Origin: an uncultured Lachnospiraceae bacterium
Lineage (GTDB): Bacteria > Bacillota > Clostridia > Lachnospirales > Lachnospiraceae
Direction of reading: 5' to 3'
DNA length: 64,000 nt
NCBI GenBank assembly: GCA_900316395.1
Contig: ONCT01000010.1
Coordinates: 1 to 64,000 of the forward strand
The translations under genes and the position numbers were made by a program. The notes under the pieces were generated by a model. It was not told where the DNA came from, ran no database searches, and was given only the letters and a program-made list of their open reading frames with translations. The number at the start of each line of letters is the position of its first letter. Within the stretch, counting starts at the first letter, position 1. Shown here one piece after another: positions 12,088 through 34,543 of this stretch.

Positions 12088-12816
12088 ATGAGTAAATGTG
12101 CATTTATTAGCGGAGCATCGAGAGGGATAGGCAAAGGGATTGCCGAGGTTCTGGCAAGTGCTGGATACAACCTGGCGCTATGTTGTGTTAATAATATAGA
12201 TTCTTTAGAGGAATATGCGACTAATCTCCAGAAATCCTTTGGCATTCATGCCAAAGCATATCAGCTTGATGTCTCTTCTATTAAGGATTGGGAAAATGTG
12301 TCTTCCGAGATTATGGCTGACTTCGGCGATATTGATGTAGTAATTAATAATGCAGGAATATCATATATTGGACTCATTACGGATATGTCCTCTGAGGAAT
12401 GGAATAAGATTGTAGCTACTAATCTGGATTCGGTATTCTACTCTACGAAGGTATTCTTACCGAAAATGATTAATAGAAAGTCAGGTCATATTATCAACAT
12501 TTCTTCTATGTGGGGAGAAAGAGGTGCTTCCTGCGAGGTGGCTTATTCTACAACTAAGGGTGGAATTAACGCATTTACAAAAGCTCTGGCGAAGGAGGTG
12601 GCTCCAAGCAATATAGCTGTTAATGCCATTGCTTGTGGAGTGATTGATACTGATATGAATTCCTGCTTTAGTCAGGAAGAAATATCTGAACTTGTGGATG
12701 AAATACCAGCTGGCCGATTAGGTACGCCTACAGAAGTAGGACAATTGGTGCTATCAATTCTTAATTCTCCATCCTACATGACAGGACAGATTATAGGGAT
12801 TGATGGGGGTTTTTGA
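12088..12816 (+). CDS. SDR-family oxidoreductase (FabG-like)
   Basis: A classical short-chain dehydrogenase of 242 residues is encoded from the preferred start. It has the NAD(P) motif ISGASRGIGKG (about 6-16), NNAG (about 88), the catalytic YSTTK Tyr/Lys pair (about 153-157) and the C-terminal YMTGQIIGIDGGF. GGAGGG lies 6 bases before the ATG at 12088; upstream in-frame ATGs at 12064 and 12085 are worse placed. The substrate is unknown. It is not in a fatty-acid operon, so the fabG symbol is not justified. Its first 43 codons have a diverged, inverted copy at 34543-34415 fused to another gene. Confidence 0.88.
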   Translation: MSKCAFISGASRGIGKGIAEVLASAGYNLALCCVNNIDSLEEYATNLQKSFGIHAKAYQLDVSSIKDWENVSSEIMADFGDIDVVINNAGISYIGLITDMSSEEWNKIVATNLDSVFYSTKVFLPKMINRKSGHIINISSMWGERGASCEVAYSTTKGGINAFTKALAKEVAPSNIAVNAIACGVIDTDMNSCFSQEEISELVDEIPAGRLGTPTEVGQLVLSILNSPSYMTGQIIGIDGGF

Positions 12817-21173: not shown

Positions 21174-22556
21174 TTATTTCACAAGCCATGAACCTTTTTT
21201 CTTGGATCCGATTCTTTCAATCGTGCCTTCGTCCAGCAACTCTTTCATTAGCATTTGTACTGTTCTTCTGGACTTATCCATCATTTCTGACAACTCGACC
21301 TGCGTTAATGACGGATTTTCCTTAAGAAGTAGCAATATATACTCACGGTCAGTCATCCGGCTTTTCTGCGCTTTATTTTGCGCTTTATTTTGCGCTTTAT
21401 TTTGCGCTTTATCATAAGCATAGTTCAAATTCCAAAGCGTAAGGAAAAAATTATAACCATCCGTATAAAACACAGGCTTTAGTTCTTCCTTATATCGTTC
21501 CTCTGCCTCATACGCATCAAGAATTTTCTTAAATCCACTTCCCCTTCGCTCCATAAGCCGCATTCTACCAAAAACATCTGCGAGAATCGGATTTCGCAGT
21601 TTTGACGGTACATGTCTTATATCCAGCAACTGAACCTCTGAACCATCAAACATTCCTCCGGGATTAGTGATGACAATCCTGTCATCATAAATATCTACCT
21701 GACTATGAGCTCCTGTCTGAAGATAGCTTCTGTGGATAAGAGCATTAACCAATCCCTCTTCCAATGCTCGTTCCGGATAGTCAGGCAACTCTACGCGTTT
21801 ATCATTGTCTTTGCGCCATCCTTTTTTTGTATTATTTTTAATAAAGGCCATGGTACTGTCATAAAGTTCTATAAGCCCACCTGTATATTCCGCATCATCA
21901 AGTGCGTCCTGTGTAGAATTGGCTTTCTCAAGACCATTCCACCTTGTACAAAAAATTCTCGAATGATGAATATTCCACTGATCCGCAAACAAAATCCCTG
22001 CATTAGTCATTTGACCGTCTTCTTGCATAAGCTTAAAGCTTACAAGGTCATCATCAAGTACCAATGAAAGACGCGTTGCTTTCAGATATCTTTTCCTAAG
22101 TGATTCAAATGTAAGCTTCTCTCTTGGAATATCAGATGTCATTTCATCATATGATGTTCCCGTACTTTTTATAATGAATTCCGTAAGTTCAAACCCAGTA
22201 ATCTCTTTTTTTACACTTCCGGTTCGATAATAATATCTACCGTGCAGATTTAACGGAAGCTTTGATTTCTTTACTTCGATTTGAATATACTTCTTTTTAT
22301 CTTTCGTTCTAAGGTTAACGTCACATGTCATACCAAAGACCGCAGTAATCTTGTTGGGAATATCCTCCAACAACTTTTTTACAATCTTTTCTTCTAATCC
22401 AAGGACGTTACCATTGTCATCAATACCAATATAAAGAGTTCCACCCTGTGCATTGGCATAACCACAGATCCATTCGAGATATTTATCCTGCCATGACTCT
22501 TTCCACTCGACAACCTGACTTTCATTTTCATCTATGATAAGGTCTATTTCTCGCAT
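21174..22556 (-). CDS. AlbA_2 (Schlafen-like) and HATPase-domain regulator with KAQN repeats
   Basis: The protein has about 460 residues. Its N-terminal AlbA_2 domain carries ESQVVEWKES and GYANAQGGTLYIGIDDNGNV (residues 9-50). A middle HATPase-like part has ALEEGLVNALIHRSY and IVITNPGGMFDG. A C-terminal winged helix covers LLKENPSLTQVELSEMMDKS and following residues. Just before the winged helix is a tandem AQNK repeat, coded by a 12-base DNA repeat. ATG at 22556, with GAGG 7 bases upstream, is preferred over GTG at 22562. It is probably a DNA-binding, possibly self-regulating, protein. The promoter carries an inverted repeat of a word also found in its own coding repeats. Confidence 0.8.
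   Translation of the reverse strand: MREIDLIIDENESQVVEWKESWQDKYLEWICGYANAQGGTLYIGIDDNGNVLGLEEKIVKKLLEDIPNKITAVFGMTCDVNLRTKDKKKYIQIEVKKSKLPLNLHGRYYYRTGSVKKEITGFELTEFIIKSTGTSYDEMTSDIPREKLTFESLRKRYLKATRLSLVLDDDLVSFKLMQEDGQMTNAGILFADQWNIHHSRIFCTRWNGLEKANSTQDALDDAEYTGGLIELYDSTMAFIKNNTKKGWRKDNDKRVELPDYPERALEEGLVNALIHRSYLQTGAHSQVDIYDDRIVITNPGGMFDGSEVQLLDIRHVPSKLRNPILADVFGRMRLMERRGSGFKKILDAYEAEERYKEELKPVFYTDGYNFFLTLWNLNYAYDKAQNKAQNKAQNKAQKSRMTDREYILLLLKENPSLTQVELSEMMDKSRRTVQMLMKELLDEGTIERIGSKKKGSWLVK
21367..21412. repeat. Tandem 12-bp repeat inside the AlbA-domain gene
   Basis: Four copies of GCGCTTTA occur at 12-base spacing (21368, 21380, 21392, 21404), separated by TTTT. They code for the KAQN tandem on the minus strand. 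The same 8-base word recurs three times in the promoter region of this gene (22600-22650). Copy number is likely variable by replication slippage; the unit keeps the frame. Confidence 0.85.
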
Positions 22557-22586
22557 AATCACACCTCATTTTCAAACTATTTTATA

Positions 22587-29384: not shown

Positions 29385-29800
29385 TTAGAAAAAATCCATC
29401 TTACTAGCTAATTCTTCTAATGATTCCTGCTTCTTATTAAAGTTAACCTCAGTGTAAATATCCAATGTTGTCTCTACGTTTTTATGCCCCATGATTTCTT
29501 GAACGACTTTGATATTTATATCGCTCTCACAAAGACGCGAACAGAATGTGTGCCTGAGTGAGTGACAAGAAGAATGTGGAATGATAATCGGCTTTCTGCT
29601 TTGTCTCTTGGCATCAATAATCTCTTTCGCATTATACGTTTCATATATTCTTTTAATTGCCAGGTTAACGCAATGAGGATTATGCAAGGTTCCTAATTTG
29701 TTTGAAAACACAAACCCCGTATATCCTTCCAGCTCATATGCACAAAAGCCATTTCGCGTATAGTAAGTAGCCGAATGATTAACGCTAATGCTTCTCCAAA
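29385..29800 (-). pseudogene. Tyrosine integrase, C-terminal remnant with internal deletion
   Basis: The C-terminal catalytic half of a Tn916-class tyrosine recombinase is readable. SCHSLRHTFCSRLCE holds the HxxR pair, followed by VQEIMGHKN and the nucleophile Tyr in TLDIYTEV. Upstream, ISVNHSATYYTRNGF is joined directly to LEGYTGFVFSNKLGTLHNP. Related integrases carry about 50 more residues between these blocks, so an internal deletion is likely. The first catalytic Arg region is absent, and the frame begins inside a dnaC fragment. It is inactive. Confidence 0.75.
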
Positions 29801-29901
29801 GGATGAGGGAGAGCCTTATCACAAGGCGTATGACATTTAGCGCAATACAGCAATCCATCTTCGGCAATATACGTTTCATTTTTCAAATCCTGATTTTTCA
29901 T
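29785..29901 (-). pseudogene. 5' fragment of a DnaC-like replication ATPase gene
   Basis: A 38-codon frame starts at 29901 with MKNQDLKNETYIAEDGLLYC and AKCHTPCD, the zinc-finger-like start of the DnaC-type ATPases of integrative elements. It then runs into the integrase remnant. Its ATG overlaps the stop of the rep frame as TGATG, the arrangement of an intact rep-dnaC operon. The ATPase domain is missing. Confidence 0.6.
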
Positions 29902-30230
29902 CAAAAGCTCTCTCCTTCCCGAACAATATATTCTCTATTATTAAATATTTTATTTACTCTCTTATATTTACTAGGGTCCGGTTTTCTGACCTCGGCTGGG
30001 CTTGAATTCTGACCTCTGTAAGTATTGTTTTCTGGCTTATGTAAGTCAGATTTCTGTCCGCTGTGGTCAGAATACTGACCGCTTTCGGATGTCCATGGAA
30101 CCTTAATATAAATATTTGTCATAGTAAGCCCCATCCGTCTTCTCTCAATCAGTCCTGCCAACTCTAATTCCTTCAAGGAGGCCTTTACTGTGGATTTTCC
30201 TTTACTCATACACCTCGCATTCATATTCAT
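29901..30230 (-). pseudogene. Replication initiator protein, C-terminal part
   Basis: The 109 codons contain the winged-helix block SKGKSTVKASLKELELAGLI and ERRRMGLTMTNIYIKVPW, typical of rep initiators of conjugative and mobilisable elements. A hydrophilic tail follows, ending NNREYIVREGESF. The N-terminal DNA-binding wing is missing. The first codons (MNMNARC) overlap the upstream coiled-coil frame by 29 bases, which looks like a recombination joint. Confidence 0.6.
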
Positions 30231-30579
30231 AGCGATTTGGAGTAAATGCTTCCTGAAGCTCTACCTTTGGTGGGTTTAAAAGGCGATTCATGTAATAGAT
30301 TTGCAGGTAACAGTTCTTTAATTCCAAGTCTTTGATCTCGCCCTGCAAAACTTCATTTCTCGATTTCCAATCAGCGATATCCTCTTGGTGCTTTGACTCT
30401 TCCTTTGCTAAATCTTCTCTGGCCCTATCCAACTCCAAAGACAAATCAGCATTTTCTTCAACGCCTTCATAATATGCACCAAAGACTTCCTTAAGCTCAT
30501 TCGCCCGGTCATCATACTCCGAGAAATGCATTCGATTATCCATAGTCCAAAAGAGGTTATTCCACTTGTGCGGATCCAC
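30202..30579 (-). CDS. Coiled-coil protein, possibly a mobilisation gene fragment
   Basis: The 125-codon frame, from GTG at 30579, has a strongly charged coiled coil at about 37-90 (ENADLSLELDRAREDLAKEE and following). The frame is open further upstream to 30663, reading SGFKTARDTIIKISQDGKSV. It is in phase with, and separated by only a TAA from, the 41-residue frame above it. The C-terminal coiled coils of MobV relaxases look like this, but no catalytic motif is visible, so the identity is uncertain. Confidence 0.4.
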   Translation of the reverse strand: MDPHKWNNLFWTMDNRMHFSEYDDRANELKEVFGAYYEGVEENADLSLELDRAREDLAKEESKHQEDIADWKSRNEVLQGEIKDLELKNCYLQIYYMNRLLNPPKVELQEAFTPNRYEYECEVYE

Positions 30580-31728: not shown

Positions 31729-33525
31729 TTAGCTTTTCGACTTTATTACTCTCTTCATCATTTCCATGTATCTTGGATCTGTAGATTCAAGCTTAATTAC
31801 GCTACTTGCATTTCTCTCATAATATTCTCCTTCATACGCTTGTGGAGTGCCATTAGACTTTACATCAAATACAAAAATATCTTTCTCATAATATTTGAGC
31901 GCCCGCATGTTTACTAATATTTCTGATTTCATTTCTGCCGAAATAGGTTCTTCCTCAATCTCTTTTCTGATTTTTTCCCAATACTCATCTGCTGATAATT
32001 TAGGTTTTATTATTTCCGAGTTAATTCCTGTAATAAAGAAATCATTATATTTTCTGTAATCATCCCCGTACAATCGAAAATACTTATCGGCATCGTCTTC
32101 ACTATCTGCAACTCCCACTATTACATACCCATGCTCATTTGGTTTAGTATTCACCATCGCTGTTAACGTTTTAACTATCTTTTTTAAACACTTTTTATTA
32201 TAGTTAGCATCTTTTGTTAAATCACAAAATCCAATTTTCAAATCTAACATTTGTTGTTCAATGCAAGTATCCCTCAACATATTCTCTAAATCTGATATAT
32301 TTGACTGTGATATTTCCTTCTTCACTACATTTGAAAAAGTCATAGCTATTATAGATTTTACTGCTACTATTTTTTCCTCCCTAGCTCCAGAATCCCAAGA
32401 CGAATCTCCTACATTATTCAATTCTCTAGCCGCAAGATTATCTAACTTTTTAATTATTTCATTATAATCTGCAACTATTTTACTCTCACTCATTAGTGAA
32501 TATATTGCCAAAAAGATTACTTGAAAAGAGCGAACTTTTGCTGAACCAACATTATGAAAAACCAACTCAGAAAATGTTTTACCAGCAATATCGAAAATTC
32601 TTTCCAGCTCATCCATTACTTCCATAAACTGGCTAATAATCTCATTTTCTCCAATTCTCAATATCTCCGCTTCTGCTTTTTGGTAAACTTCTTGTTCTTT
32701 CCCTTCAGTTCCATATAACACATTCAAACTGTATGCCGTAGGTTCAACCCTATTCCCTAAAAGCATATATGCAAGAATTTGTCCAATCATCTGCTCATCC
32801 ATTGATTGACGCATATTCTTTATTGTAATAATACCTTGTTTTACCCAAAAAACTTCATTAAGTTTTATTCCATAATCCAATTTACTATTTGAAAGACTAA
32901 TAGCTCTCATTTGAGATAACTCCAAAATATCACTTGATGAATAATCTCTCCTCACTTTATTTGCTATTTTGCGAACAACCTCTGAAAACATGCATATTGC
33001 TCCAGCTTGTCTCAAATCTTGTCTAGAAAGCTGACGACCACTTGCATTAATTCTCCGAAATATTTCCTCTACAATACAATCTTCAAAATCTGTAACAGAA
33101 AAAGGCAACGGGTAATTACTTATTTTTGTACAAATATTTCTAGGCAATACAGGCGTCTTTTGTTTCAATTTCCCTTCATCAAGCATCTGTTTGGTCAACG
33201 CCATTGTATTCAAATCGAAATATCCATCAAACTCTTCATTTTTCAACTTAAACTCATTTTGAATAAATGAAAAAATAGCATCTAATCTCTGCATTCCATC
33301 GATTATTTCATATTTAACATCCGATTCTGTCTTTTGTTCAGCCAAAAGAAATAACGGAACTGAATACTGGCGAGAAATAGAATCAACAAAAGCCATTTTT
33401 TCTTCAACTGTCCAAACTAATTTTCTCTGATATTTACGATTAACCATAAATCTTTTAGAAATATACCAATCAAAAACTCGTTGTATATTTTCATTACTTA
33501 TCGATAAATTATTATCCACAATCAC
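31729..33525 (-). CDS. DUF262 and AlbA_2-like (Schlafen) fusion protein, putative defence protein
   Basis: The protein has 598 residues. Its N-terminal DUF262 (ParB/GmrS-type) domain has NRKYQRKLVWTVEEK (29-43), the IIDGMQRLDAIF motif (74-85) and FRRINASGRQLSRQDLR. The middle is helical. At about 415-575 there is an AlbA_2-like domain: LKKIVKTLTAMVNTK, then HGYVIVGVADSEDDA, and near the end YYERNASSV. DUF262 proteins occur in GmrSD-type restriction, usually with a DUF1524 HNH domain, which is absent here. AlbA_2 is a nucleic-acid-binding or nuclease-like domain. A stand-alone defence role is inferred from domain type and location. It is an isolated, AT-rich gene. Confidence 0.75.
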   Translation of the reverse strand: MIVDNNLSISNENIQRVFDWYISKRFMVNRKYQRKLVWTVEEKMAFVDSISRQYSVPLFLLAEQKTESDVKYEIIDGMQRLDAIFSFIQNEFKLKNEEFDGYFDLNTMALTKQMLDEGKLKQKTPVLPRNICTKISNYPLPFSVTDFEDCIVEEIFRRINASGRQLSRQDLRQAGAICMFSEVVRKIANKVRRDYSSSDILELSQMRAISLSNSKLDYGIKLNEVFWVKQGIITIKNMRQSMDEQMIGQILAYMLLGNRVEPTAYSLNVLYGTEGKEQEVYQKAEAEILRIGENEIISQFMEVMDELERIFDIAGKTFSELVFHNVGSAKVRSFQVIFLAIYSLMSESKIVADYNEIIKKLDNLAARELNNVGDSSWDSGAREEKIVAVKSIIAMTFSNVVKKEISQSNISDLENMLRDTCIEQQMLDLKIGFCDLTKDANYNKKCLKKIVKTLTAMVNTKPNEHGYVIVGVADSEDDADKYFRLYGDDYRKYNDFFITGINSEIIKPKLSADEYWEKIRKEIEEEPISAEMKSEILVNMRALKYYEKDIFVFDVKSNGTPQAYEGEYYERNASSVIKLESTDPRYMEMMKRVIKSKS

Positions 33526-33780: not shown

Positions 33781-34020
33781 TTAACAATATATAATGCTTC
33801 TAAAGCAATCCTTGTCATTCTCAGTCTTAATCGCATCTGCCCGTTGATAAAAAGAGGTAAATCCTTCTATATCGTCATTAAATATGAAAACTCTTTTTGT
33901 GAGTTCTCGGCCCCTGTTATCAAAGGCTCTATCATAGTGCGTTATGCTTCCGATATCAACTCCGATTACTAAAGTTGTATCTGTTACTTGTTCAATTCTC
34001 TCATTCTGTGTATAATTCAT
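33781..34020 (-). mobile_element. IS110-family transposase, N-terminal remnant
   Basis: From ATG 34020, with AGGAGG upstream, the frame reads MNYTQNERIEQVTDTTLVIG and VDIGSITHYDRAFDNRGREL. This is the start of the RuvC-like DEDD domain of IS110 transposases, with the first Asp in VIGVDIGS. It runs on through FIFNDDIEGFTSFYQ and ends after about 80 codons. The rest of the catalytic domain and the transposase C-terminal serine domain are missing, so it is dead. Confidence 0.75.
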
Positions 34021-34153
34021 AGTGAACCTCCTGTGTTTGATTGATATGTTACATCCACCAAGATACATCTCAATCTAACCTTGAGGTTCTATATTATTCA
34101 ATTGGTACTCTTTATGAATTACAGGAATGCTCCTAAATATAACTAGTAAGATA

Positions 34154-34543
34154 CTATCTCAAAGCTCTTCTTAATTCATCTTCGCTATACCCAAACATAT
34201 AATCATCGTCTTCACCATTACTTACCCAAATATCTGCTGCATCATAGACACTTATTCTTTCATCTTCGTAAGCATTACTAGAATTACCCGAGCCACGACA
34301 ACTTCTACACCAAGACCGAGGCATTGTTCCGTCATATCTAAATCCAAACAGCTCTTCAATTTCTTGCTCTCCATGAGCAATCAGACCGCAATGTGGGCAT
34401 TCTGCATAACTACCATATTCCGTTAATGAATCTATATGGTTTACACAACATAGCGCTAAGTTATATCCTGCGCTTGCCAAAACTTCAGCAATTCCCTTGC
34501 CTATGCTTCTCGACGCTCCACTAATAAAAGCGCTTTTACTCAT
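34154..34543 (-). CDS. Chimeric gene: SDR N-terminus fused to a zinc-ribbon-like protein
   Basis: The 129-residue product starts with 43 residues almost identical to the SDR at 12088 (SAFISGASRSIGKGIAEVLA, then LALCCVNHIDSL). It then switches to an unrelated domain with CPHCG (about 49-53) and CRSCR (about 78-82), a likely zinc ribbon, and an acidic tail. The SDR catalytic Tyr/Lys are absent, so it cannot be a reductase. GGAGG precedes the ATG. By hand count, the shared 129 bases match at about 82%, with most changes at third codon positions. It arose by deletion or recombination joining a second SDR gene to a zinc-ribbon gene. Confidence 0.75.
   Translation of the reverse strand: MSKSAFISGASRSIGKGIAEVLASAGYNLALCCVNHIDSLTEYGSYAECPHCGLIAHGEQEIEELFGFRYDGTMPRSWCRSCRGSGNSSNAYEDERISVYDAADIWVSNGEDDDYMFGYSEDELRRALR

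Follow-up and report, generated by a model that had tools for sequence, protein, structure and literature searches.

A DUF262–Schlafen/AlbA_2 fusion gene from an uncultured Lachnospiraceae bacterium belongs to a widespread single-gene family with a probable role in phage defence

The fusion gene and its surroundings

The window, by which we mean the whole stretch of 64,000 nucleotides of contig ONCT01000010.1 that was analysed, carries on its minus strand (31729..33525) a complete gene in which a DUF262 domain is fused to a Schlafen/AlbA_2 domain. The reading frame is intact and encodes 598 amino acids as listed; that the gene is complete is borne out by its motifs, by inspection of the start and by full-length homologues. 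The real start is probably the GTG at 33519, two codons after the listed GTG at 33525, because a GAGGTG sequence lies at a normal distance ahead of the former and, judged by eye, is better spaced there than before GTG 33525; the protein would then have 596 residues. The motifs IIDGMQR, RINASGRQLSRQDLR, AMVNTK, GYVIVGVAD and YYERNASS, from which an earlier note had read a fusion of DUF262 with an AlbA_2/Schlafen-like domain, are all present in the translation. The GC content of the gene is 31.8%, compared with 38.1% for the window.

The gene lies intact amid element remnants, much as the earlier note had described its setting. A truncated tyrosine recombinase (C-terminal part, 29385-29879, minus strand) is the remnant of an integrated element, and the region 29385-30579 (minus) consists of this recombinase part and two short reading frames without clear family. 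On the other side of the fusion gene lies an 80-residue fragment (33784-34023, minus), which has no family match and a single relative (83%) in a genome of the same genus, and which by eye resembles the beginning of an IS110-type transposase. The first 45 or so codons of the reading frame at 34.5 kb (34154-34543, minus) belong to a short-chain dehydrogenase, and unrelated cysteine-rich sequence follows; the whole dehydrogenase is found at 12088-12813 (plus), and 34154-34543 is a chimeric fragment, produced by duplication, on the edge of the element. Since the dehydrogenase fragment is a partial second copy, comparison with relatives did not establish a clean empty site for the inserted element.

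Domain architecture and predicted structure

Pfam, sequence conservation and a structure model agree on the fusion of the two domains. GmrSD_N (DUF262, PF03235) matches residues 27-174 with an E-value of 2.2e-20, and SLFN_AlbA_2 (PF04326) matches residues 445-578 (E 2.8e-7, 31.5 bits against a cut-off of 25.3), while fold comparison extends the start of the Schlafen-like domain back to residue 405. The protein is thus composed of a DUF262/GmrSD_N (ParB/Srx-like) domain (residues 27-174; 33004..33447, minus), supported by Pfam and the structure model, a middle region that is mostly helical in the model (residues 175-404; 32314..33003, minus), and a nuclease-like Schlafen/AlbA_2 domain (residues 405-598; 31732..32313, minus), supported by Pfam and a separate model. 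A profile scan of the window protein and 81 aligned relatives gave no match to DUF1524 or any other HNH family, as the earlier note had claimed for the single protein. No NCBIfam model matches the fusion protein, and the PADLOC models NsnA, PD-T4-2_A and REase_II cover at most the N-terminal residues 12-371. With PD-T4-2 and NsnA matches confined to 12-371 or 21-203 and no recurrent partner gene, the whole protein falls outside both of these systems; the source paper of the NsnA model was not found in our literature search.

The full-length AlphaFold2 model, built from an 82-row alignment, has a pLDDT of 92.8 and a pTM of 0.88, and the C-terminal domain modelled alone reaches a pLDDT of 93.2. 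The N-terminal fold matches BrxU (Z 8.8), SspE (Z 8.4), ParB (Z about 7) and DndI (Z 5.9), and also sulfiredoxin. The BrxU match extends over 296 residues, up to position 395, but its rmsd of 11.2 means that the sub-domains do not superpose as a single rigid unit. For the C-terminus, where a DUF1524 or some other fold would have contradicted the earlier note, structure prediction instead returned a Schlafen/AlbA_2 fold: this part of the full model matches the DNA-binding/tRNase domain of SAMD9 (Z 11.0 and 10.6), and the top 20 matches of the lone domain model are all SAMD9, Schlafen or bacterial AlbA_2 structures (Z 6.0-10.8). Among these, the SAMD9 domain scores Z 10.5-10.8 and SLFN5, 11, 12, 13 and 14 score Z 6.0-7.6, and the bacterial matches are Corynebacterium DIP2311 and a Nitrosomonas AlbA_2 domain; beyond the top 20 the list falls to unrelated folds such as methyltransferases at Z 4.5. 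Foldseek agrees on this fold (E 6.6e-5 to 8.8e-4). Identity to Schlafen and SAMD9 proteins in the fold alignments is only 12-22%. A single unit of the two-unit Schlafen core is matched (residues 405-598, to approximately residues 190-350 of Schlafens), and a second AlbA-like unit could be supplied through dimerisation.

Sequence searches were less revealing. A phmmer search of PDB sequences with the whole protein gave no match, a profile search of the same sequences gave a weak match to BrxU (E 0.0011), and a blue-light photoreceptor that also appeared in the profile search was judged spurious. At the sequence level, no Schlafen was picked up by a profile restricted to the C-terminal domain, and the fold assignment therefore rests on the structure models and Pfam.

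The match of the N-terminal and middle regions to BrxU also speaks for a different reading of the protein as a DNA-cutting, type IV-like restriction enzyme, in which modified phage DNA would be recognised by DUF262 and then cut or nicked by the Schlafen-fold domain in place of the HNH domain of GmrSD. In BrxU, GmrSD and SspE alike, DUF262 is coupled to a domain that cuts or nicks DNA (PMC10952713), and the SAMD9 domain was, according to the title of the structure, crystallised with DNA. However, the nearest enzymes of the same fold with reported activity, the SAMD9 tRNase domain and SLFN13, are tRNA or RNA nucleases, and DUF1524 is missing from all members scanned; we regard this reading as unlikely.

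Conserved residues of the two domains

Conservation was assessed in an alignment of 110 distinct full-length homologues of 550-690 residues, all with the same layout. The putative nucleotide pocket of DUF262 lies in the motif I-D-G-M-Q-R (residues 75-80; 33286..33303, minus), of which D76, G77, Q79 and R80 (D-G-x-Q-R) are invariant in all 110 sequences. In the C-terminal domain, E423, K430, G432, G471, G500 and R571 are invariant. The earlier note had called for a search for a catalytic carboxylate triad, and a predicted triad of the Schlafen type indeed emerges from the alignment: E423 (32257..32259, minus), which is glutamate throughout, D428 (32242..32244, minus), with 85 aspartates and 25 glutamates, and D474 (32104..32106, minus), with 97 aspartates, 12 glutamates and one asparagine. 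The three positions are thus acidic in 110, 110 and 109 of the 110 sequences, and the invariant lysine K430 (32236..32238, minus) follows two residues past the second acid.

The active site of Schlafens is composed of two glutamates and one aspartate, and the corresponding triads are E184/E196/D241 for SAMD9 and E186/E198/D243 for SAMD9L; antiviral action and translation arrest are both lost when the triad is mutated (PMC11221667). The second and third acids are separated by 46 residues in the fusion protein and by 45 in SAMD9 (PMC11221667), so that, as far as the alignment can tell, the order of the acids and this spacing fit the SAMD9 triad. Conserved acids do not tell which nucleic acid is cut, and AlbA_2 domains occur in regulators and DNA-binding proteins too. 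The fusion protein might accordingly be read as a mobile-element regulator or a nucleic-acid-binding immunity or maintenance factor devoid of nuclease activity, a reading encouraged by the abundance of the family on plasmids and prophages and by the frequent annotation of AlbA_2 domains as DNA-binding. Yet without catalysis there would be little reason for an E-[DE]-[DE] triad to persist in 109-110 of 110 sequences, and the family has no conserved target operon or partner gene, which makes a purely regulatory role improbable to us.

Size and spread of the family

A scan of genome contigs with the single sequence yielded no relatives, and the family surfaced only with an alignment as query: among genomes sampled at one per species, this search found 312 confirmed relatives, of which the best 80, matching almost the whole query, were analysed. 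A further 35 relatives were found in viral contigs, and tblastn found 145 plasmid records in which at least 80% of the protein is covered, including homologues from Azotobacter (36% identity), Klebsiella, E. coli IncFII plasmids and Lentilactobacillus. The 110 proteins of the conservation alignment were drawn from these searches. Homologues with the same layout occur in eight phyla, on plasmids and in prophages. Among 82 diverse members, GmrSD_N is detected in all 82 and SLFN_AlbA_2 in 69 (at E 0.001). The tree of the genome set requires 18 changes of phylum label against a minimum of 7, which is suggestive of horizontal transfer across phyla, though no proof of it; in this tree, Cellulosilyticum (52%) and a Treponema bin supply the nearest rows to the window protein. 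The distribution is patchy: full-length copies are absent from 97 relatives of the window genome, and in a class sample of 391 none was found besides that of the window's own genome. The fusion is a real single-gene family that is widespread in bacteria and no local oddity. RefSeq labels its members only as DUF262 or GmrSD-domain proteins.

In E. coli, the relative that directly adjoins pemIK on IncFII plasmids (IncF loci L018, L021 and L157) is near-complete in 105 of the 803 genomes that hold any part of it. Among the records listed, most partial copies stop at base 1284 or begin at base 1276; the resulting overlap of 9 bases is typical of an IS target duplication, and the break parts DUF262 from the Schlafen domain. 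Because most copies there are IS-broken, the gene is dispensable on these plasmids, which is a counterpoint to a defensive function. The broken copies and the position beside pemIK would also suit an addiction or toxin-like module that serves the element instead of phage defence. This we hold to be very improbable: no antitoxin-like neighbour is conserved across 74 non-redundant loci, and the position of some copies in a hotspot of P2-like phages, described below, points to phage exclusion.

Genomic neighbourhoods of the homologues

The earlier note had suggested that this could be a single-gene defence protein and had called for a survey of its homologues' neighbours; such a survey supports both the single-gene and the defence part of the suggestion. 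When the 128 direct neighbours of genome homologues were compared with PADLOC, the matches included defence reverse transcriptases (III-A and XIII), RmrA, a type III restriction enzyme, DarG and several phage-defence candidates, to which Pfam adds Eco47II; this tally is qualitative and stands without a matched background control. On the Lentilactobacillus plasmid the gene comes after a dcm methylase, a PLD restriction enzyme/nuclease and a Z1 protein, and genes of the TIR-domain and Lit families are found no more than 8 kb from the Klebsiella copy. The 93 neighbours at 25 viral loci include 7 P2-type portal proteins and 6 large terminases, and at the P2-like prophage loci L015/L105 a replication protein is followed by the fusion gene, the portal and the terminase (names assigned by eye and from a PHROG tally). 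In P2-like phages, the interval between gpA and gpQ is a hotspot of anti-phage systems (Rousset et al., PMC9122126), and it is this hotspot that the fusion gene occupies at L015/L105. A search of E. coli genomes did not recover the P2-prophage copy.

No neighbour cluster occurs in more than 4 of the 74 non-redundant loci, and the fusion gene therefore works alone or with host factors. The idea of a shared operon was rejected, the largest cluster (4 of 74) being a phage structural gene. We conclude that the fusion gene, with its mobile and defence-rich context, probably serves in phage defence; the hotspot and the defence-island neighbours are no more than an association.

Proposed mechanism and relation to known systems

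We consider it reasonably likely that the fusion protein is a stand-alone, horizontally spreading defence effector which combines a DUF262 NTP switch with a Schlafen/AlbA_2 nuclease acting most likely on RNA or tRNA. The DUF262 part would bind, and probably hydrolyse, an NTP and act as sensor or switch, perhaps upon recognition of a phage-DNA feature, as in GmrSD, BrxU and SspE. The Schlafen/AlbA_2 domain with its E-D-D triad would be a metal-dependent nuclease that is restrained until the switch fires, so that infection would lead to RNA cleavage and translational arrest and could thereby protect from phage. The assignment of DUF262 as switch and Schlafen as effector follows the analogy with BrxU and SspE, both of which bind or hydrolyse NTPs, in SspE with the result that the nuclease domain is triggered (reviewed in PMC10952713). 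RNA, above all tRNA, is favoured as substrate by analogy with the known activity of the nearest folds. More tentatively, the protein may be a one-protein immune switch, widespread and so far undescribed, that joins a type IV sensor of modified DNA and NTP to a SAMD9/Schlafen-like tRNase; the outcome of restriction would in that case be a halt of translation and not cleavage of DNA, and bacteria would possess in this family an equivalent of the Schlafen/SAMD9 factors with which animals counter viruses.

Among the closest known systems are the type IV enzymes GmrSD and BrxU, which share the DUF262 domain with its D-G-x-Q-R pocket, the helical middle, the single chain and the defence-island context. 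Their C-terminal DUF1524 HNH nuclease, found neither in the 82 members nor in the model, is replaced in the fusion by the Schlafen/AlbA_2 domain, and the motif reads D-G-[MLV]-Q-R rather than D-G-Q-Q-R (six sequences). The phosphorothioate-linked effectors SspE and DndI resemble the fusion in their N-terminal fold, whereas the fusion lacks DUF1524 and has no recurring neighbour cluster comparable to an ssp or dnd operon. Multi-gene systems are already known in which the nuclease partner of a DUF262 protein is a separate polypeptide (PD-T4-2, Menshen (PMC10952713) and ptuXYZ). In PD-T4-2, Menshen, Dazbog and PtuXYZ the DUF262 protein likewise lacks DUF1524, several include a nuclease effector, and PD-T4-2 and PtuXYZ employ RNase-type domains; in these systems, however, the nuclease is a separate protein (HEPN, OLD or BECR), while here it is fused and of Schlafen type, and the PADLOC PD-T4-2_A and NsnA models stop by residue 371 of the fusion.

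With the animal Schlafen and SAMD9/SAMD9L tRNases, the fusion protein shares the AlbA_2 nuclease fold and, by prediction, three catalytic carboxylates, but it differs in having a single AlbA_2 unit under DUF262 and in its low identity (12-22%, as above). Bacterial Schlafens in phage defence (PMC12839542) also contain a Schlafen-type RNase domain, proposed to be a suicide effector; these lie near BREX and are fused to a minimal histidine kinase (mHK) and wHTH, not to DUF262. Our literature search found no description of a fusion of DUF262/GmrSD with Schlafen/AlbA_2 and no experimental work on any member of the family; a preprint about Schlafens with which bacteria counter phage (bioRxiv 10.1101/2025.07.24.666596), as cited in PMC12839542, may overlap.

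Known DUF262 proteins are type IV restriction sensors that drive a DNA nuclease, and here, in at least eight phyla, the same domain is wired within a single chain to a nuclease fold that serves animals against viruses. Should the fusion prove active, it would offer a single-gene test bed for how NTP-driven sensing by DUF262 turns on an effector, and for the origins of Schlafen/SAMD9 immunity in bacteria. Because E. coli IncFII plasmids and P2-like prophages carry intact copies, laboratory strains would allow a direct test.

Two other proteins carry related domains. At locus L002 (G093:C146, 166-2106), the C-terminus of a 646-residue protein matches the same Schlafen-like domain with 25% identity, and its N-terminus differs, with no match to the DUF262 domain of the query; judging from the sequence, this is perhaps the same effector on another sensor. 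In the window itself, a second Schlafen/AlbA_2 protein of 462 residues (21174-22562, minus; AlbA_2 E 2.8e-17) shows weak C-terminal HTH matches and the layout of the common AlbA_2–ATPase–wHTH proteins, and it is the only other AlbA_2 match in the window's genome.
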